A model generated the notes under the pieces. It searched no databases. It saw only the letters and a program-made list of their open reading frames with translations, and was not told the DNA's origin. Below, in pieces: positions 26,949-63,972 of a DNA stretch of 64,000 bases. The stretch's first letter is position 1; the number at the start of each line of letters is the position of its first letter. The stretch lies in contig NZ_FZNS01000002.1 of the NCBI RefSeq assembly GCF_900188255.1, positions 434,001 to 498,000 of the forward strand. Direction: 5' to 3'. This stretch comes from Hymenobacter mucosus. Its GTDB lineage: Bacteria; Bacteroidota; Bacteroidia; Cytophagales; Hymenobacteraceae. The position numbers and the translations under genes are program-made.

Positions 26949-28490
26949 CTATCCTACATAGTCGCGGCTAGCTTGCTCATTAGCACGCTGCTCCTCTTCT
27001 AGTCGGTGCAAGATGGTGAGGGTGAAGGCCCAAAGATCTTCATAGGGCACGATTTCAATTTCTCCGTAGGCTTCTCCCGGTTGGGGAGCCACCCGCAGTT
27101 TCTCCAGTAGAGGCGCCGCCTTCTGCTCGCACTGGCGTGCTACGAAGTTTTCTTTTACAGTTAGCAGGAGCATACGAAAGAACAGCTGACTGCGCAGAGT
27201 TGCCGGATTACGCAAGTGACGCTGTTCGTACTTACGCAAACCGTCTAGTCGTGCTAGCAGCCCTTCAATGTCGCGGCGGCGAAGGAAATACAGAAATTGC
27301 AAGATCAGGATGGCTACGTTGTATCCCTGTTTGTCGCGGCTATAATCGGGAACCGTTTGCACCAATTGAGCAAAGTGGCGCATCTTCACTGGCGACTGCT
27401 CTGGTTGCACCAGTTGAATATACGCTTCGTACAGCTCCCACCGCTGCTGTGCCGCCGGTCGCTGCTTGCGGTAATACGGGTTCTTACGAGCCTGCTGTAG
27501 CAATTCATAAGCCTGCCCATACTGACTCGCGTGCATAGCCAGCAGCAGGTAGATTTCCAGGTAGTAAAACCAGTTTCCCGAAGAGTAATGGAAATCTTTG
27601 AAGTACTCTTCAGCAAGCTTCAATCCTTTTTTAGCTTGTCGGCACTGCAAGTGTGCGTACACGCTCATGTAGTTATTAAAGCGCTTATCGAAACGCATCT
27701 CGTTCACCTTGCCCTGCTTTCTGGCTTTCTCCGTAGCTGCTGTCAGCCGAATAATTTCCGCATAATTACCCGTTAGCTCTTCCCGCGACATCTTCGTGAC
27801 GTACAGAAAATAGAATGTGTTATACGTCTTAGCCTTCTTATGAAGCTGTTCTAAGCGCTCTAAGGAGGAAGGCAATTGTTTAAGAATAAACTGCCGCCAA
27901 CGCACCTTCTGCTGAGAAAATACTTTTATTTCAAAGAATAGCTGTTCAGCTTCGTCTTCTAAACTCAGTGTTTGCTGAAGTTCTTCTAGCTGTTTGTTCA
28001 TCGCTTTGAAACGAGCTGCGTTACGAGTTTCCGCATAGAGAATGCGTAGCATTCGCACGCACATCACGGCGTATTGTGTCAGTTCGGCATCAGTTGCCAC
28101 TTTTAAGGATTTTCGAAACAGCCGTTCGGCTAGTTTATACTCGCCCTCTCCTAATAGAATACGCGCCTGGTGTAACAAACCCAAGCATTGCTGCTCATGC
28201 CGACGCGACACAACATGTCGTACATCCGTGTGATCTAAGAAATAGAGATGGTTCAGCAGTTTTTGCTGCACCCGCGACTTGAGCTTTCGGAACGTGGTCT
28301 GGCTACGGGCATCAGTAGCTCCGTACAAGCTTTTAACTATCTTGTTTTGAGTTGTATTAGGATCTTCTTCTAATAATCGAACCAGTTGTAAATCTTTGCT
28401 GGCTGCATTACGAGCAGAGAAGTCTAGAAAAGGGAGTACTGCCAACCGACGATCGGTCACAATTTTAACTAGCGTAGTAAGTTCGTCCAT
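26949..28490 (-). CDS. Helical (TPR-like) protein of unknown function, 513 aa
   Basis: A large soluble, basic, all-helical protein. I do not recognise a named family. Residues about 1-85 (with KSLYGATDARSQTTFRKLKS and RVQQKLLNHLYFLD) look like a small helical domain that could bind nucleic acid. From about 95 onward, helical hairpins of TPR type repeat (EYKLAERLFRKSLK, QYGQAYELLQQARKNP). There is no signal peptide or membrane segment. The gene is divergent from the repeat-peptide gene at 28861, sharing a 370-bp intergenic region rich in GTCACA/TGTGAC hexamers. A regulatory or scaffold role for that locus is an inference only. Confidence 0.8.
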   Translation of the reverse strand: MDELTTLVKIVTDRRLAVLPFLDFSARNAASKDLQLVRLLEEDPNTTQNKIVKSLYGATDARSQTTFRKLKSRVQQKLLNHLYFLDHTDVRHVVSRRHEQQCLGLLHQARILLGEGEYKLAERLFRKSLKVATDAELTQYAVMCVRMLRILYAETRNAARFKAMNKQLEELQQTLSLEDEAEQLFFEIKVFSQQKVRWRQFILKQLPSSLERLEQLHKKAKTYNTFYFLYVTKMSREELTGNYAEIIRLTAATEKARKQGKVNEMRFDKRFNNYMSVYAHLQCRQAKKGLKLAEEYFKDFHYSSGNWFYYLEIYLLLAMHASQYGQAYELLQQARKNPYYRKQRPAAQQRWELYEAYIQLVQPEQSPVKMRHFAQLVQTVPDYSRDKQGYNVAILILQFLYFLRRRDIEGLLARLDGLRKYEQRHLRNPATLRSQLFFRMLLLTVKENFVARQCEQKAAPLLEKLRVAPQPGEAYGEIEIVPYEDLWAFTLTILHRLEEEQRANEQASRDYVG

Positions 28491-28860
28491 CAGAAAAGCC
28501 TATTTCAAGCACCTTATGCCACTTTTTACAATATACACAATCATAAAATCCACGTCACAAAAATTAAATAAACTGCCTTTACATGTCCTATGTGACCTGT
28601 GACCTTTGTATAATGGCTAATCATGCCTTATTTCCTGGCATTATGTCACAAAAATGGGCATATCGTCCAGGTTATACTTCCGTATTTTTCACTAATAATG
28701 CCTTCATTATGAAATAGAGGGCCTTGGAAGCAAAGATTTCTTTTTCCAAAGGCTGCGATTTTGAGGTCACGTTTACCGGTTTTCTTTCCTTTACGCCGGC
28801 TAGTTTGGTCCCCACATTTGTGTCAGTCAACCACCTGAACCACAAATAATTCCAAGCATC
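28491..28860. other. 370-bp divergent intergenic region with repeated GTCACA hexamers
   Basis: AT-rich and without a plausible gene. It holds GTCACA at 28554 and 28645, each within the direct 11-mer GTCACAAAAAT, a tandem TGTGACC at 28591 and 28598, and GTCAC at 28766. A possible -7 element, CACATTTG, is at 28813-28820, 40 nt before the repeat-peptide ATG. The region must contain promoters for both divergent genes. Confidence 0.5.
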
Positions 28861-29130
28861 ATGTTCCAAATCATCGCCATCGCTCTATTTCAAGTTTCTA
28901 CTTTCGCTGCTTCTCCTGCCCAGCAGTCGGTTCTGACTTCTTCTACCTCGCAAATTCTTGGCCACGGCACTAGCGGCTGGGGTGAAGGTCAGGTTGTTGC
29001 GGCCCACGGCACTAGTGGCTGGGGTGAAGGTCAGGTTGTTGCGGCTCACGGCACCAGCGGCTGGGGTGAAGGTCAGGTTGTTGCGGCCCACGGCACTAGC
29101 GGCTGGGGTGAAGGTCAGGTTGTTGCCTAA
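28861..29130 (+). CDS. Secreted peptide with four 14-residue repeats
   Basis: An 89-residue product. Residues 1-16 are hydrophobic and look like a signal peptide ending near TFAAS, followed by a short linker. The rest is four consecutive copies of the 14-residue unit HGTSGWGEGQVVAA, the last lacking the final Ala. I know no family with this unit. All differences between the copies at DNA level are silent, so the peptide sequence is under selection. It could be a precursor cut into short peptides, or a small repetitive surface protein. It precedes, on the same strand and by 96 nt, a peptide-type ABC importer operon. Confidence 0.75.
   Translation: MFQIIAIALFQVSTFAASPAQQSVLTSSTSQILGHGTSGWGEGQVVAAHGTSGWGEGQVVAAHGTSGWGEGQVVAAHGTSGWGEGQVVA
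28963..29127 (+). repeat. Tandem 42-bp repeat, 3.9 copies, in frame
   Basis: Units start at 28963, 29005, 29047 and 29089. They differ at four positions only (Thr ACT/ACC, Ser AGC/AGT, Ala GCC/GCT, Ala GCG/GCC), all third-codon silent changes. There are no spacers, so this is not a CRISPR array. Confidence 0.97.
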
Positions 29131-29185: not shown

Positions 29186-29221
29186 GGTAACTTGCCACGC
29201 AGCTTGTACTGCGCAGTTACC
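29186..29221 (+). promoter_or_regulatory. Stem-loop next to the start codon of the binding-protein gene
   Basis: GGTAACT (29186-29192) pairs with AGTTACC (29215-29221), and an inner CGCAG/CTGCG pair extends the stem. It ends 5 nt before the ATG at 29227, so it could hide the ribosome-binding region or shield the 3' end of the repeat-peptide transcript. No T run follows. Confidence 0.35.
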
Positions 29222-29226
29222 CGTTC

Positions 29227-30960
29227 ATGAAGCGAATCCTCTTCGGTCTGTTGTTGCTACTTTGGAGTAGTATAACAGGATGTTCTCCTTCCGCTACCTC
29301 TGCAACGCCCGACACCGTGCGTATCCGGTGGGCGCGGGACCCGGAGAACCTTGATCCGCTTATCGCCAATAACCCAAGCTCGTACGAGGTAAGCACTTTG
29401 CTGCACTGCTCGCTGCTTAATATCTCAGATACTGGGCGCAACATAGTGCCGTGGCTGGCGGCAGCTTCCCCGCAGGTTGAACGCCTCGGTGATTCATTGA
29501 TGCTAGTAAGTTACAGCCTGCGCCCTGAGGCTACCTGGGACAACGGCAAGCCAGTCGTGGCTCAGGATGTGGCGTTCACGCTGAAGATGATGAATTGCCC
29601 GGGGCTACCCACTGAAATGGATCAAGCTATGTTCCATTTCATCCAGGATATCCGCCTCGACACAACCGATAGCCGCCGCTTCACGCTGGTGTGTACTGGG
29701 CAGTCATCTGACTACGTCCGCAATTCAGGTGACTTTTCTATCCTACCTGAGTACGCACTAGATCCTAAAGGCTCATTACGCTCTGTTTCTATCCGCGAAC
29801 TACGCTCGGGAGCCGCAACCGCATACGCATCCGTTACTAGCTTCGTACAACGATATCAGGCTGCGCAGCTAGCTCAGCACCCGGATAATTTACCAGGGTG
29901 TGGTCCCTACCAGCTAAAAAACTGGCAACCCGGACGCTTTCTAACCTTCACTCGCAAATTGAAGTGGTGGGGAGATGCTCTTGCTAAGGCACCACCGATT
30001 TTGCGTGCGGTTCCTAAAAGTATTACCTATCAAATTATTCCAGACGCAGGCACAGCAATGCTTGCGCTTCGAAGAGGCGACATTGACTTATATCCGTTAA
30101 TGCCTGCTGCTGAATTCGCTCGCCTTCGACGTTCGGATGCCGACCGCGCTAGGTTGAGCTTTTATACGGTGGATTCATACGAATGCGTTGTTGCTAACTT
30201 CAATACGCGTCAACCAACGTTGCAAGACCGATTTACACGACAGGCGCTGTCAGCTTTGTTTGATGTACCAGGTCTGATTCGTGCTACCCAACAGGGCGCT
30301 GCATACCGAAGCGCTAGCATCGTTAGTCCGCGAGTACACCCTTACTACAATGACAGCTTACCGTTACCTACCTATGATACACAGCAGGCTATAACGCTGT
30401 TACGAAAGGCTGGCTGGCGCGAGGTAAATGGTCAGGGTTGGGTGCGTAAGCAAGCAGGTAAACTTCTGGAGCTTCGCCTTTCACTCAGCTATCGGGCAGG
30501 GGACCCCGCTCTAGAAGCGGCTGCTCTTCAGTTTCGAGCGGCAGCGACGGCCATACGCATTCCGGTAGATCTTCGTCCTACCGAAGCCTCTTTGCTCGTA
30601 CAACAACTCCGAGAAGGCACTACGGAAGTGAGTTTGCGTAGCATAGGGGGCAACCCTGCCGCGTATGACTTCACCCCCCTTTTTCATTCGAATAGCACCT
30701 CTCTGTACAACTACTCTGGTTTTGGGACTCCTGCCAGCGACCATCTTATAGAGGCTATTGTACAGACACCTGATACAGCGCAAAAAACTCGCTTACTGCG
30801 TCGTTTCCAACGCTTACTTTACACTGAACGGCCCATTTACGTATTGTACTTCTTGCAATACCGAATAGCAGCAGCCCGGCGCCTTGGGCGAGTGCCTGTG
30901 ACCTCCATCAAGCCGAGTTACCGCGCCAACGCCATTGACTTTTCACCAGTAACTAAATAG
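29227..30960 (+). CDS. ABC transporter substrate-binding lipoprotein (family 5)
   Basis: A 577-residue extracytoplasmic solute-binding protein of the oligopeptide/dipeptide/nickel family. A lipobox (SSITGC, Cys19) anchors it to a membrane. Family 5 features are RIRWARDPENLDPL at the start of the mature chain, LRPEATWDNGKPVVAQDVAFTLKMM, and the C-terminal QRLLYTERPIYVLYF. It is followed by two permease genes at 7 nt and with a 4-nt overlap. Peptides are the most common ligands of the family; the substrate is inferred. The preceding gene encodes a secreted repetitive peptide, which is suggestive. Confidence 0.92.
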   Translation: MKRILFGLLLLLWSSITGCSPSATSATPDTVRIRWARDPENLDPLIANNPSSYEVSTLLHCSLLNISDTGRNIVPWLAAASPQVERLGDSLMLVSYSLRPEATWDNGKPVVAQDVAFTLKMMNCPGLPTEMDQAMFHFIQDIRLDTTDSRRFTLVCTGQSSDYVRNSGDFSILPEYALDPKGSLRSVSIRELRSGAATAYASVTSFVQRYQAAQLAQHPDNLPGCGPYQLKNWQPGRFLTFTRKLKWWGDALAKAPPILRAVPKSITYQIIPDAGTAMLALRRGDIDLYPLMPAAEFARLRRSDADRARLSFYTVDSYECVVANFNTRQPTLQDRFTRQALSALFDVPGLIRATQQGAAYRSASIVSPRVHPYYNDSLPLPTYDTQQAITLLRKAGWREVNGQGWVRKQAGKLLELRLSLSYRAGDPALEAAALQFRAAATAIRIPVDLRPTEASLLVQQLREGTTEVSLRSIGGNPAAYDFTPLFHSNSTSLYNYSGFGTPASDHLIEAIVQTPDTAQKTRLLRRFQRLLYTERPIYVLYFLQYRIAAARRLGRVPVTSIKPSYRANAIDFSPVTK

Positions 30961-30967
30961 CTGGTAA

Positions 30968-32038
30968 ATGGGGCGCTATCTGCTTTTTCGCTTAGGCCGA
31001 ACTGTATTAGCAGCATGGGGCATCCTGTCTATTATCTTTCTACTAACTAGGTGGGCAGCTACCGATATCGGCTTGCAAACATTGCAAGACGCACCTACGC
31101 TTGGCAGAGGATTATCAGTAGGTGAACAAACCCGTATAGCACAGCAAGTTCGTCAGCGCTATGGGCTTGATCTTCCAGTATTTTACCTATCGGTATTAAC
31201 ATCAGATACCGATACTCCTGCTTGGCACCCCCACTGGCATTGGAATGGAACACGCAACCAATACCATCGGTGGCTACGAGGGGTAGTGCAAGGTGATCTT
31301 GGAAATTCCTACCGCGAGGGCACGCCCGTAACGAAACTATTGCTACAAGCATTACGCTACACGCTACCGCTTACTGTCTCGGCAACGTTCTTAGCCACTA
31401 TTAGTACTGTCTTGCTCGCTTCTTGGGTAAACTACTATAATAGGTGGCGTGGTTTGGTACTGGCTATACTTCACGGTATTCAAGCGCTGCCTTTGTTTCT
31501 GGTAGCACTGGGCTTGTTGCTGCTATTGGCCAATCCGGATGCGTTGAACTGGTTTCCGGCCTTCGGGTTAGGCGATGATACGGAGCAATACAGCTCTTGG
31601 AGTGAGGAGTTGCTGCAATACCTCCGCCACTTAGTTTTACCTGTTTTTAGCTTACTTCTGGTGGCACTGCCCGGGTTCGTGGTGCAACTGGATGGTGCTA
31701 TGCAGCAAGAACTAAGGGAACCATACGTAGCCACGGCCCGCGCAAAAGGAGCTCCACCAGTGCAGGTTGTTCGGAAACATGTGTTGCACAATGCCTTGCT
31801 GCCAGTCCTCCCTTTATTTACAGAGTTATTACCTAGTATGGTAACGGGCTCTGTGGTAGTAGAGATGGTATATGCCTTGCCAGGCATGGGGCGCTTGTTC
31901 GTTGAAGCTGCTGCCCAACAAGATCTTCCTGTTCTGCTGGGAGTTGTGCTACTAGTAGCAATAGCGCGGCTAGCAAGCCAGTTACTTGCCGATGCCCTGT
32001 ACCAGTGGGCTGACCCGCGCATTCGCTTGCACATATGA
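30968..32038 (+). CDS. ABC transporter permease (DppB/OppB type)
   Basis: A 356-residue inner-membrane permease with about six membrane segments (the first at 8-27, others at about 135-155, 160-182, 220-240, 280-300 and 320-340). The N-terminal GRYLLFRLGRTVLAAWGILSII matches the DppB signature. The cytoplasmic coupling (EAA-like) loop is EPYVATARAKGAPPVQVVRKH, which would dock an ATPase. It starts 7 nt after the binding-protein gene and its end overlaps the second permease by 4 nt. Confidence 0.93.
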   Translation: MGRYLLFRLGRTVLAAWGILSIIFLLTRWAATDIGLQTLQDAPTLGRGLSVGEQTRIAQQVRQRYGLDLPVFYLSVLTSDTDTPAWHPHWHWNGTRNQYHRWLRGVVQGDLGNSYREGTPVTKLLLQALRYTLPLTVSATFLATISTVLLASWVNYYNRWRGLVLAILHGIQALPLFLVALGLLLLLANPDALNWFPAFGLGDDTEQYSSWSEELLQYLRHLVLPVFSLLLVALPGFVVQLDGAMQQELREPYVATARAKGAPPVQVVRKHVLHNALLPVLPLFTELLPSMVTGSVVVEMVYALPGMGRLFVEAAAQQDLPVLLGVVLLVAIARLASQLLADALYQWADPRIRLHI

Positions 32039-33027
32039 CTCGTCGGCTCTCGTTTGCGCAGTGGCTTGCGGTTAGTTGGCTTCTGCTAGTGGTAGTCAGT
32101 GCATGTATTGCTCCCACTTCTTCTCCTGTTCCCGATTTACTCCATACCCAGGAGCCTCCGTTTCAAGATCCCCACTGGTTGGGAACCGACCCCTTGGGGC
32201 ACGATGTGTTACAGCTCCTACTAGCTGGTGCTCGCACCACGCTACTCATCAGCATTCCAACGGCTGTTTTGGCCTCCCTGCTAGGCGGTGCAGCGGGTAG
32301 CGTAGCTGGTTTTTGGGGCAACAGCACTTATCAGGTGCAGCGTGCTAGTGCAGCGGCGGGGGTGATAGGTGCGGTCATTGCATTGCTATTTATACCTCAG
32401 CTACGCACTAATCCTTTTCCTGTAGGGCTAGTAATAGGAGTTTTGAGCTGCACCGTTTATTACGCACTCCGACGTACTAGTTGGGGTCAACGGCAAATAG
32501 CGGTGCCAATAGATAGTATGGTGCAAGCACTAATTGCGCTACTAGACTCTATTCCGCTACTATTGCTGGTTCTTGCAATTGCTGCCGTACAACGCCCTTC
32601 ATCCATGGGCTTGGTTGTATTACTCGTCCTGACCTGCTGGACTACCCCAGCTCGCCTACTGCGTGCCGTGACTTTACGGACCAAGGCCTTGCTTTTTGTG
32701 GAAGCCGCCGTTGTTGCTGGGTTGCCCACTCTCAGAATCTTGCGGTACCATATTTGGCCTAATACCTGGCCGGTATTACTAATCCGTTTGCCACTCAGTA
32801 TTGCCATCATTATTGGACTTGAAACGACCTTGTCGTTTCTTGGAATTGGGCTAGCCCCAGAAGTTGCTAGTTGGGGGCGATTACTAGCAAGCATTCGGGT
32901 GGCGCCAGCAGCATGGTGGCTTTTGGTGTGGCCTGGGGCAGCCATATTCTTCACCATTCTAAGTCTGCACACCTTAGTAAGCACTAAAATTACGGGGTTT
33001 GACAAACATCTAGATGTCACAAAATAG
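32035..33027 (+). CDS. ABC transporter permease (DppC/OppC type)
   Basis: The 330-residue partner permease. Features are the DppC-like WLGTDPLGHDVLQLLLAGARTTL (about 55-77), the EAA-like loop FVEAAVVAGLPTLRILRYHIWPN (about 222-244), and LSFLGIGLAPEVASWGRLL. The ATGA overlap with the preceding gene shows coupled translation. An insert of about 70 residues between the first and later membrane segments makes it slightly longer than usual. No ATPase gene (DppD/F or OppD/F) follows, so energy must come from a subunit encoded elsewhere. Confidence 0.92.
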   Translation: MTRRLSFAQWLAVSWLLLVVVSACIAPTSSPVPDLLHTQEPPFQDPHWLGTDPLGHDVLQLLLAGARTTLLISIPTAVLASLLGGAAGSVAGFWGNSTYQVQRASAAAGVIGAVIALLFIPQLRTNPFPVGLVIGVLSCTVYYALRRTSWGQRQIAVPIDSMVQALIALLDSIPLLLLVLAIAAVQRPSSMGLVVLLVLTCWTTPARLLRAVTLRTKALLFVEAAVVAGLPTLRILRYHIWPNTWPVLLIRLPLSIAIIIGLETTLSFLGIGLAPEVASWGRLLASIRVAPAAWWLLVWPGAAIFFTILSLHTLVSTKITGFDKHLDVTK

Positions 33028-33302
33028 CCTATTTTTTCACATCACAATCTAGCCAACAATCTATGTACGCACACTACCTTCTAAGCTTTCGAGCAGCAGA
33101 AAAGGATTTTAGAGATTGTGCAGTTTTAGCGAGATTTAAATCAACTTAATTTTTAACAATAAAACTAGCAATTATACAAGTCACAATTTTGATAAAAGTG
33201 TCCTTTACAACCCTATAGTTACCCCCTTAATATTGTCATGTGGAACGGCACATAAGGAGAAGATAAGGGGTCACTTTTATTAAGTTCTTTTTACCGTTTT
33301 AC

Positions 33303-33521
33303 ATGAATTCGCTCCTTGTCAATCGTCCACATGGCAAAGCACTTCGGACGTTGATACTTGAGATGATGGCGCGGCACACCGTAACGGTAAATGCCAAGCA
33401 TTATCTCACAATTGACGGGGAATGCATTCCATACGCGGCCGGGTCCGCAGCACTGCGTAAGGGCGCTGCAATCTTGGTTGGTGGCTTATTCGTCGGAGTA
33501 GCCACGTCATCTGATGACTAA
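33303..33521 (+). CDS. Small hypothetical protein (72 aa)
   Basis: I do not recognise this protein. The N-terminal part is basic and mixed (GKALRTLILEMMARHTVTV), a single Cys lies near the middle (DGECIPYAA), and a Gly/Val-rich hydrophobic stretch (GAAILVGGLFVGVAT) ends in an acidic SSDD. The hydrophobic tail could insert into a membrane. It is preceded by a 275-bp AT-rich gap with GTCACA hexamers and followed by a strong terminator, so it is an independent unit. It may belong with the repeat-peptide locus, but that is inference. Confidence 0.6.
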   Translation: MNSLLVNRPHGKALRTLILEMMARHTVTVNAKHYLTIDGECIPYAAGSAALRKGAAILVGGLFVGVATSSDD

Positions 33522-33663: not shown

Positions 33664-33729
33664 CTCAGCCCAATACGCGAACGACCAAATGTCGTGTAGG
33701 ACATCTGGTCGTTCGCGTATTGGGCTGAG
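33664..33729. repeat. Long near-perfect inverted repeat
   Basis: Two 30-nt arms (starting CTCAGCCCAATACGCGAACG) match at 29 of 30 positions around the 6-nt loop GTGTAG. It ends 3 nt before the stop of the RmlD-like gene on the minus strand. No T run follows on either side, which makes it unusual for a terminator, though it may still end or protect transcripts. Confidence 0.85.
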
Positions 33730-62046: not shown

Positions 62047-63018
62047 ATGTCCGTTTCCGTTGCCTGGCTCGATGCCCTTCCTGCCGATTTCTATGATCAG
62101 CTAGCTCATTGCTTGAGTTTGCACGGAATGGCAGCAGCCGAACTGCTGAGCCGGCCCGCAGAAGAACATATGCGCCGCCTCCACGACCTCACCCATCTTA
62201 CCGCGGCGCAGGTGCAGCAGCTCAACCGCATCAGCAGCCACACCGAGCTACTGGCAACGCTACACACTGAGCCGCTGGCGTTGTACTACTTGCTTCTGCT
62301 GGGCCGGCTTACGCTGGAAACTTCCGTAGCTGCGCCCGTGCTGGCCTACGTGCAACAGCAGATGCACATTACCGCCGATCAGCTCACACAGCTACAGACC
62401 TATTGCCTGGAACTCAGCGGTGCATTCCTTACGACGCTGGAACAGCACCTGCCCGCCCCCAACGGGGCCGTGTCGCTGGGCTGGCACCGCTTGCAGATAG
62501 AGGAAATATTTGCGGAATACACTGCTCAGCTGCCAGAGGCCCCTCCACCGGTAGCCAACCTTCGGCTCACAGAGCCCCAGCTGCAAATGCTGCGCCTTTC
62601 CCTGCTGCTCGTACACAGCCTCCCACAGGCCGCCGACCATCCGTTCATGCGGGCTGTAAGCCGGCTAGACAATTTGCAGCCGGCAGCGCTAGAACCCTTG
62701 ATTGAACACTTAAGCCGCATTCGGGCCCAGGAGCAATTACGCCTAACCATGCCGGAACTAGTGCAGCTCTACCAAGGTATGCAGGTATGCGGCATGGTAT
62801 TCATCTCGGACGTTATGAACAAGCTAGGGCTGGAAGACCTGTTCCCCACGTTGTCGGCAGAAGAGGCCGGGGCTACTACCCCCGCCCCGGCTAGCAACCG
62901 GCAGGCAGTGGGCGAGATGGTAAGCGGATTCACGCACTGGGTGCAACACACTTTCCCCGATGCACCCGAAATCATAGAAGCCCGCGCCCAGGTATTAACC
63001 CTGGCCGACGCCCTGTAG
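62047..63018 (+). CDS. Helical protein of unknown function (323 aa)
   Basis: A soluble, Leu- and Gln-rich, all-helical protein with no signal peptide or recognised domain. Stretches such as LTHLTAAQVQQLNRISSHTE and LRLTEPQLQMLRLSLLLVHSLP suggest helical repeats. The C-terminal 70 residues contain an Ala/Thr/Pro linker and a last helix (SGFTHWVQHTFPDAPEI). ATG at 62047 is preferred to the GTG/TTG-type starts upstream. The function is not recognised; it is divergent from ruvB and convergent with the HIRAN gene. Confidence 0.75.
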   Translation: MSVSVAWLDALPADFYDQLAHCLSLHGMAAAELLSRPAEEHMRRLHDLTHLTAAQVQQLNRISSHTELLATLHTEPLALYYLLLLGRLTLETSVAAPVLAYVQQQMHITADQLTQLQTYCLELSGAFLTTLEQHLPAPNGAVSLGWHRLQIEEIFAEYTAQLPEAPPPVANLRLTEPQLQMLRLSLLLVHSLPQAADHPFMRAVSRLDNLQPAALEPLIEHLSRIRAQEQLRLTMPELVQLYQGMQVCGMVFISDVMNKLGLEDLFPTLSAEEAGATTPAPASNRQAVGEMVSGFTHWVQHTFPDAPEIIEARAQVLTLADAL

Positions 63019-63040
63019 CCGCTAGCCTAGCAGGTGGGTC

Positions 63041-63376
63041 TTACGCGCGTTCGAGCAGCACTTCAATTTCCAAATGCAGCCACTCTTCTTCCCAAGCTTT
63101 ATGAGTGAGGCGAGCAGCCAGGGGATACCCGGCATCTAATAGGCGCGCCACGGTTTCATTACGGCCTTCGGGCAGGTAGCCCAGCCAAAAAGCATCGGAA
63201 CCCGTTGTATACACGCGCACGGCCCAATCGTCGTAGGCACTATCGGCTTCCCGCTGCAGATTAAGCAGTTGATTGGGCTGCAACTGAGGTTCTAACTCCC
63301 GCAAGCCAGGGCGGTGCGTAGTTCCAGCTACAAGGCACTCAAGCAAAACAAGGGTTTCGGCAGAAGGAGTAGGCAT
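63041..63376 (-). CDS. Stand-alone HIRAN-domain protein
   Basis: A 111-residue protein that is essentially one HIRAN domain, a fold known to bind the 3' end of single-stranded DNA in HLTF/Rad5-type helicases. Typical pattern: VAGTTHRPG, then LNLQREADSAYDDWAVRVY, then FWLGYLPEGRNETVARLLDAG. No helicase is fused or adjacent. ATG at 63376 was chosen over an upstream start at 63463. Confidence 0.8.
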   Translation of the reverse strand: MPTPSAETLVLLECLVAGTTHRPGLRELEPQLQPNQLLNLQREADSAYDDWAVRVYTTGSDAFWLGYLPEGRNETVARLLDAGYPLAARLTHKAWEEEWLHLEIEVLLERA

Positions 63377-63476
63377 GAGCAAGTAAAGCAAGTGAGGCCG
63401 TAAAATAACACGGAAACTAGAAGTTTGCCGTACTGCCGCTACGGGCCCTCTTTTCTTCCTCACTCCACCCTCTTCC

Positions 63477-63506
63477 TTGTATTGATTTCCTGGCCCGGTA
63501 TTTTTG
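63477..63506 (+). promoter_or_regulatory. Promoter of the DUF4268 gene
   Basis: TTG at 63477-63479, a 19-nt spacer and TATTTTTG at 63499-63506 fit the consensus. The -7 element ends 4 nt before the ATG at 63511, implying leaderless translation. Confidence 0.55.
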
Positions 63507-63510
63507 CCCT

Positions 63511-63972
63511 ATGTACAGCAAAACTGAAGTAACCCAGCTCCGACAAGCCTTCTGGACTACATTTGGCCAGTACATGCAGCCTGTTCCCTCTGCCGAAGGC
63601 GTGCCCACGAACTGGATCAACTATAAAACTGGCCTGAAGCACGTGTACTTCCGCATGCAGGCCGATAACCGCCACGCTACCATCGGCATTGAGCTAACCC
63701 ACCCCGATGCGGGCATTCGGGAGCTGTTTTTTGAGCAGTTTCAGCAACTGCGCAACATGCTGAACGAGACTACCGACGAAGCCTGGGTGTGGGAAGCCGA
63801 CGGTGTGGATGCCAACGGGCAGCCCTACAGCCGCATTTACCAGGAGCTTCGCCCCATCAACCTCTTCAACCGGGAGGACTGGCCCCAGCTTATTTCTTTC
63901 TTCAAGCCTCGTATCATGGCCCTAGACGAGTTTTGGAGTTCCGCCCAATATGCGTTCGATGAATTGCGCTAG
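63511..63972 (+). CDS. DUF4268 domain-containing protein
   Basis: A 153-residue soluble protein. Family features are FWTTFGQYMQPVPSAEG, NWINYKTGLKHVYFRMQAD, ATIGIELTH and RPINLFNREDWPQLISFFKPRI. DUF4268 domains occur alone, as here, or fused to nuclease-like domains; no function is established for the short form. It is complete and ends 28 nt before the window end. Confidence 0.9.
   Translation: MYSKTEVTQLRQAFWTTFGQYMQPVPSAEGVPTNWINYKTGLKHVYFRMQADNRHATIGIELTHPDAGIRELFFEQFQQLRNMLNETTDEAWVWEADGVDANGQPYSRIYQELRPINLFNREDWPQLISFFKPRIMALDEFWSSAQYAFDELR

Follow-up and report, generated by a model that had tools for sequence, protein, structure and literature searches.

What is the function of a small protein that, after a hydrophobic start, spells out the same short peptide four times over beside the genes of a peptide importer? 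This question is raised by an open reading frame of Hymenobacter mucosus at positions 28861-29130 of the window, the term used here for the whole 64,000-nucleotide stretch of DNA that was analysed. The protein-coding genes considered are the following.

26949-28490, minus strand: putative intracellular peptide receptor of 513 aa, predicted to comprise HTH-like helices (about residues 32-88) and then a TPR superhelix
28861-29130, plus strand: propeptide gene (89 aa), with a leader (residues 1-16), a linker and four HGTSGWGEG cores
29227-30960, plus strand: SBP_bac_5 peptide-binding protein (SBP; PF00496, E 3.5e-45), with a lipoprotein-like start, ITGC, recognised by eye
30968-32038, plus strand: DppB/OppB-type permease (PF00528, E 2.3e-29)
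32035-33027, plus strand: DppC/OppC-type permease (PF00528, E 1.4e-14)
33303-33521, plus strand: small 72-aa protein, candidate output gene; tblastn finds a relative between DppC and RfbD in 48 of 81 loci

The propeptide family and its repeated core

The initial annotation described four 42-bp units encoding the same peptide, a description with which both the detected array and the translation agree. Tandem Repeats Finder places the array at 28962-29126 (period 42, 3.9 copies, 95% matches, no indels), and this is the only tandem array that it lists at default score in the 64-kb window. In frame, it reads as four units of the form HGTSGWGEGQVVA(A), with HGTSGWGEGQVVAA occurring three times and HGTSGWGEGQVVA standing before the stop codon. 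The copies were also said to differ purely by silent changes, and so they do: the four differences between units seen by eye (AGC/AGT, GCC/GCT, ACT/ACC, and GCG/GCC) are all silent, and a scripted pairwise comparison of the 9-residue core gave 6 silent codon differences and 0 replacements. The protein has no Pfam or NCBIfam match, and in its own 5.5-Mb genome the next-best match has E 0.16.

A search of 99 genomes with the window propeptide returned matches at E <0.001 in 22 (its own included), all of the same genus; the best match among the 38 genomes from outside the genus had E 0.064. Relatives are also present in named records of Hymenobacter latericoloratus and H. sediminis. The family was collected through the neighbouring 513-aa gene, by fetching its loci and scoring upstream open reading frames that bear the leader. 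Of 108 receptor loci, 101 yielded a propeptide, the seven without a call being second receptor copies (L076, L134, and L138) and distant receptors (L146-L149). All 94 genus genomes with a receptor have a main-locus propeptide (94/94), at a start-to-start distance of 340-385 bp. The remaining seven calls are a duplicate (L022) and six non-genus loci (L140-L145), the peptides of which are diverged and single-core, with ends such as NIGTSGWDDRN or CAIGWDDND. Two entries were left out of the resulting set of 99 propeptides, namely L022, an H. latericoloratus record with the same sequence as L070, and L044, a near-copy of L040 from another genome that stays in the count of 94 genus loci. Regions L046, L048, L050, L052, and L054, fetched on weak matches, contain no receptor and were set aside. 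The comparison of homologues and copy number that had been proposed for this peptide thus yields a genus-wide family with 1-20 core copies.

Members share a 16-aa uncharged leader with the consensus M-[LF]-[ENQD]-[LFI]-[IL]-A-x-A-L-[LF]-Q, from which there are exceptions among the 99 sequences; Gln11 is present in 96/99, and Lys and Arg are absent from the first 16 residues in 98/99. The start of the window protein had been called signal-peptide-like, which holds for its hydrophobic character but not for a textbook Sec signal, as its first 16 residues contain no Lys or Arg. To our knowledge, an uncharged leader with a near-invariant Gln in the middle of a hydrophobic stretch, as encoded at 28861-28908 of the window and throughout the family, matches no known export signal; a dedicated exporter may recognise it. 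After a linker follow 1-20 Trp-containing cores, one in 26 of the propeptides and two or more in the other 73, with degenerate repeat units present in L111, L043, and L127. The most frequent residues at Trp -5 to +3 read [GHTIVQ]-G-[STGA]-[GS]-G-W-[GTSA]-[GDNE]-[DGIS] (93 members). In 22 of the 26 single-core members, Trp is found 3-6 residues before the C terminus, and the mature peptide of these members is predicted to be C-terminal.

Selection on the peptide, suggested by the initial annotation for the window array, extends to each copy in the homologues. Across the 73 arrays there are 2.4 silent vs 0.21 replacement codon differences per copy pair (pN/pS 0.028), and the 9-residue core is identical across all copies in 55, of which 52 nevertheless differ in DNA. 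Judged from these codon differences, purifying selection is acting on each core copy. In arrays of at least three copies (summed weight 64), replacement differences amount to 0-3.5% at Trp -5 to +2, rising to 12% at +3, 20% at +4, and 33-50% at +5 to +7 on one side, and to 38-56% at -6 to -9 on the other; low replacement around Trp and high replacement at the flanks delimit a conserved unit of about 8-10 residues. Cores of the same array have an identity of 0.98, species consensus cores one of 0.55. Loci L037 (18 copies of HGSGGWSG) and L089 (20 copies of HGNGGWSG), for example, differ by one residue in every copy, and their receptors are 88% identical. Between the two roles originally offered, the multi-copy precursor is favoured by these species-specific cores, whereas the repetitive surface element is weakened by the single-core members (26/99).

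Cassette order, distribution and importer

The proposed link of the propeptide to a peptide-type importer is borne out by synteny. Receptor (on the opposite strand), propeptide, SBP, DppB, and DppC are adjacent in this order in 89 of 94 genus loci; four of the exceptions lie at contig ends (L039, L096, L115, and L120), and L121 is rearranged, with two receptors, SBP, and propeptide. The receptor was found in 93 of 101 genus genomes, with one more (G243) from a separate order-wide search. The eight receptor-less genomes (8/101) have no SBP match at E 1e-10 either (8/8), and all eight have an empty site, with HK, RR, PKD, RfbD, and PPI grouped together and no cassette among them. In a tree of RfbD and PPI, seven of them group in a single nested clade, and G036, which is 82% complete, branches separately; this placement implies about two loss events.

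The closest solved relatives of the SBP are NikA (E 2.7e-21) and then the peptide binder AppA (E 3.2e-18). The Opp-type ATPase is encoded outside the cassette, and its candidacy as a cassette member was rejected, oligo_HPY being present in 23/23 genomes tested, all 8 cassette-less ones included (two matches in 22 genomes and one in G064).

Among 194 genomes sampled from the order, the genus included, 44 encode a receptor relative; a profile search of 395 genomes sampled from the phylum found one in 20. Within about 1.5 kb of flank, 16 newly fetched distant receptor loci showed no SBP relative, and they gave one poor candidate propeptide (L232); the claim for the cassette is accordingly limited to the genus, two further genera of its family (L142-L145), and, with a diverged peptide, one other family (L140, and L141 without an adjacent SBP). 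In L141 and L170 (G064), from another family, the receptor adjoins a single-core propeptide, and an SBP relative is encoded elsewhere in the genome. A second receptor homologue abuts the first, beside a single-core propeptide and importer, in L143, L144, and L145 of a related genus. No receptor match was found in a phage collection. A plasmid search found one orphan receptor, at 62159-63667 of NZ_CP053909.1 (L134, Hymenobacter sp. BRD128, 39.8% identity), beside which no propeptide was called, as is also the case for the second copies L076 and L138; this propeptide-less plasmid receptor is possibly an eavesdropper.

The putative receptor and the regulatory DNA

The divergent 513-aa gene was left unlinked to the propeptide in the initial annotation, and its predicted fold best matches Rap/NprR pheromone receptors. 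The AlphaFold2 model, made from 87 sequences, is all-helical with paired helices (mean pLDDT 89.2, pTM 0.84). When 947 Foldseek chains were re-scored with VIA-align, the best 11 were all Rap or NprR, with Z 18.8-16.5, to be read against the Z of 13-14 that helical repeats can reach by chance; the alignments have rmsd 3.8-5.6 over 270-305 residues at 6-10% identity. Below these came mixed TPR proteins, with AimR at Z 15.4 and lower. Foldseek itself gave no match to the model at E up to 0.001, its top rows being eukaryotic TPR-type proteins. At the sequence level, a comparison with solved receptor chains gave no match (one unrelated chain at E 0.24), nor did NCBIfam, and Pfam gave weak TPR matches, with TPR_MalT in one member (2.4e-5) and Trans_reg_C in another (0.001). 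Modelled separately, the N-terminal domain, which in RRNPPA receptors is an HTH or a Rap-type three-helix bundle, has HTH-like helices (pLDDT 70.8) and weak fold matches, the best at Z 4.7, that include several DNA-binding domains; the domain alone has no clear match. Conservation averages 0.64 on helices of the putative inner face, assigned by alternation, vs 0.55 on the others, and conserved polar residues appear in the model mostly on the former. The 513-aa protein is thus predicted to be a TPR superhelix most like the Rap/NprR pheromone receptors.

Core distance also correlates with receptor distance. With RfbD and PPI as controls, the partial r over 75 loci is 0.39 for the receptor, 0.36 for DppB, 0.32 for SBP, and 0.29 for DppC, values in which some shared ancestry remains. 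Given the receptor, the values are -0.03 for RfbD, -0.05 for PPI, and 0.11 for SBP; given SBP, the receptor retains 0.26. Per-column covariation between receptor and core was examined and rejected as a signal, its mean being near zero, its spread like that of the flanking PPI, and no receptor column lying beyond the control genes.

The intergenic DNA contains the following conserved elements.

28554-28610, plus strand: promoter-like module P1, GTCAC-N16-[TG]CCTTT-N23-CTTTGTA, with one mismatch to the module; conserved columns
28645-28651, plus strand: isolated GTCACAA element between P1 and P2; conserved columns in 94 aligned intergenic regions
28766-28822, plus strand: promoter-like module P2, GTCAC-N16-TCCTTT-N23-ATTTGTG, an exact match directly upstream of the propeptide
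29188-29196, plus strand: TAACTTGCC element in the propeptide-SBP gap, conserved in an alignment of 88 regions
33180-33237, plus strand: promoter-like module P3 before the small open reading frame, matching the module within 2 substitutions

The 94-locus intergenic sets leave out L022, L044, L140, L141, and L143-L145, and the 88-region set additionally leaves out L142 and loci without an adjacent SBP. Bacteroidota promoters carry the elements TTTG and TAnnTTTG, and the module resembles a promoter of this type with an upstream operator. The motif GTCAC-N16-TCCTT-N24/25-xTTTGT[AG] has at least one complete copy in the receptor-propeptide gap of 58 of 94 loci, two in 10, and no exact copy in 36; shuffled sequences gave none. 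P2 is the sole exact module match in its own genome. Across 29 genomes, the exact module with looser spacing (N10-22, N18-30) gave 15 matches in 12 genomes, and its reversed control gave 6. Every one of the 15 falls inside the cassette: 13 adjoin the propeptide, and 2 precede the small open reading frame. A search of 12 genomes with the 57-base module, at up to 2 mismatches, found it 33 times, spread over 9 of them, vs 10 times for the reversed pattern; at this tolerance it was absent from three cassette-less genomes. A regulon beyond the cassette was considered and rejected: 12 outlying sites inspected in 6 genomes, among them one upstream of each of a Fur-like gene, a 687-aa TPR protein, and a small secreted-looking protein, had no convincing shared target. 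The TAACTTGCC element is strongly conserved amid poorly conserved DNA and lies inside a predicted hairpin in several loci.

Downstream of the importer, 69 of 81 loci carry the module, at up to 2 substitutions, between DppC and RfbD. The 72-aa protein encoded there has no Pfam match at E 0.1, no PADLOC match, and one sub-cut-off NCBIfam match. Seven loci (L024, L025, L026, L029, L081, L082, and L083) keep P3 and have no ATG open reading frame of at least 40 residues within 200 bases downstream; the P3 transcript may have another use there. At 33667-33726 of the window, between the 72-aa frame and the convergent RfbD-type gene, lies a near-perfect inverted repeat with identical 21-base arms, which may act as a bidirectional terminator or represent a repeat element.

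A candidate signalling circuit and its alternatives

From gene content and arrangement, we infer that the peptide is secreted and sensed. The cassette probably encodes a Bacteroidota peptide-pheromone circuit, built on a multi-copy precursor and a dedicated importer, that works in the manner of the Gram-positive RRNPPA systems. In such a circuit the propeptide would be exported via its conserved uncharged leader and cut at the core ends into identical peptides of about 8-10 residues (HGTSGWGEG or slightly longer in the window), which SBP, DppB, and DppC would re-import, powered by the ATPase encoded elsewhere. The imported peptide would bind in the groove of the TPR receptor, and the bound receptor would alter how the propeptide and the 72-aa frame are transcribed from their GTCAC...TCCTTT...TTTGT promoters, with autoinduction arising as this control reaches the propeptide's own promoter. 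Core copy number would set the signal dose, and an array-wide core change would switch the signal of a species. A fuller reading, held with somewhat less assurance but still favoured, is that of a Gram-negative pheromone system with a Rap/NprR-like intracellular receptor, a dedicated importer, and a precursor with 1-20 copies that change together, in which species rewrite the signal by concerted evolution of the array and the receptor follows.

The circuit is weakest at two steps: export by a leader that has no basic residues, and passage of the outer membrane, which would have to be crossed for use between cells. Confidence is also lowered by the ATPase, which lies outside the cassette and is retained in all eight cassette-less genomes; by the Foldseek and sequence negatives, the N-terminal Z of 4.7, and the lack of receptor-specific column covariation; and by the facts that about two losses lie behind the eight absences and that the reversed control itself yields 6 promoter matches.

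The main rival is an autocrine loop in which the peptide would reach only the periplasm before re-import, so that the cell would monitor export, time, or the state of its envelope. Hymenobacter is a diderm, and this, the uncharged leader, and the importer adjoining the propeptide all suit such a loop; species-specific cores in up to 20 copies are, however, easier to explain by a signal that is shared and diluted, and the loop is judged rather unlikely. A leader, repeated cores, and small size would also fit an autoregulated RiPP or bacteriocin, a modified or antimicrobial peptide with several cores, served by the importer and TPR protein for immunity or control. That reading is improbable, as no modification enzyme was found among the cassette and flanking genes examined, the propeptide matches no Pfam or NCBIfam family, and a Rap/NprR-like receptor would be left unexplained.

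The importer invites two further readings. SBP_bac_5 proteins and permeases are common import genes, and the locus could be an ordinary peptide uptake operon with a TPR regulator, next to an unrelated surface or structural repeat protein; the constancy of the propeptide at the main loci, the single-core members, the shared promoter module, and the joint absence of the genes make this very improbable. Least probable is a ribosomal metallophore with NikA-like uptake, brought to mind by the closest solved SBP and by the His and Glu of the window core: just 24/93 members have His as their commonest residue at Trp -5, and Trp and Gly are conserved instead, so that no metal ligand is conserved.

For the preferred pheromone circuit, parallels can be drawn with several known systems. 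Yeast alpha-factor type precursors are likewise multi-copy, with tandem identical peptides and variable spacers, and differ in being eukaryotic, with a membrane receptor and unrelated sequence. The resemblance to RRNPPA systems (Rap-Phr, NprR-NprX, AimR-AimP, PlcR, Rgg, and PrgX) includes a small propeptide adjoining a TPR receptor gene (all 94 main loci), a mature peptide that, in single-core members, is predicted to lie close to the C terminus, a TPR superhelix by its best fold match, and an Opp-type importer, re-import here being suggested by gene adjacency. The available portions of the literature describe such signalling for Firmicutes (PMC9765709; PMC10075063), with receptors whose superhelix consists of 5-9 TPR or TPR-like repeats (PMC9765709) and propeptides that have basic N-terminal residues and a Sec signal, SHP and PrgQ being exceptions to Sec (PMC10075063). 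The present system differs in its Bacteroidota host, the lack of sequence similarity to solved receptors, a leader without basic residues, the SBP and permeases inside the cassette, a Gly/Trp-rich peptide, and a DNA-binding domain that is putative. Because its leader is not basic, sequence similarity was not found, and the N-terminal HTH match is weak, the cassette is not filed as an RRNPPA member. As far as its available text describes, a published RRNPPA detector covered complete Firmicutes genomes and viruses with receptors of 250-500 aa and dropped clusters without basic N-terminal residues, so the present locus would lie beyond the reach of that scan (PMC10075063).

More than one pheromone per propeptide, together with a Rap-type receptor, is also seen in phages phi3T and phi105, which the accessible part of the source describes as having Rap systems with tandemly duplicated Phr pheromones (PMC11343458). 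Unlike the Phr peptides as described there, the cores reported here number 1-20, are usually identical within a species, and are rewritten together between species. In the literature searched, bioRxiv and most subscription journals being outside its scope, no account was seen of Hymenobacter peptide pheromones or of RRNPP-type systems in Bacteroidota.

If the preferred reading is true, intracellular peptide signalling would be carried across the diderm divide, into the Bacteroidota. The family would also make the co-change of signal and receptor specificity testable, as up to 20 signal copies differ at once between close relatives, and the candidate signals are short peptides that are open to synthesis and direct testing.
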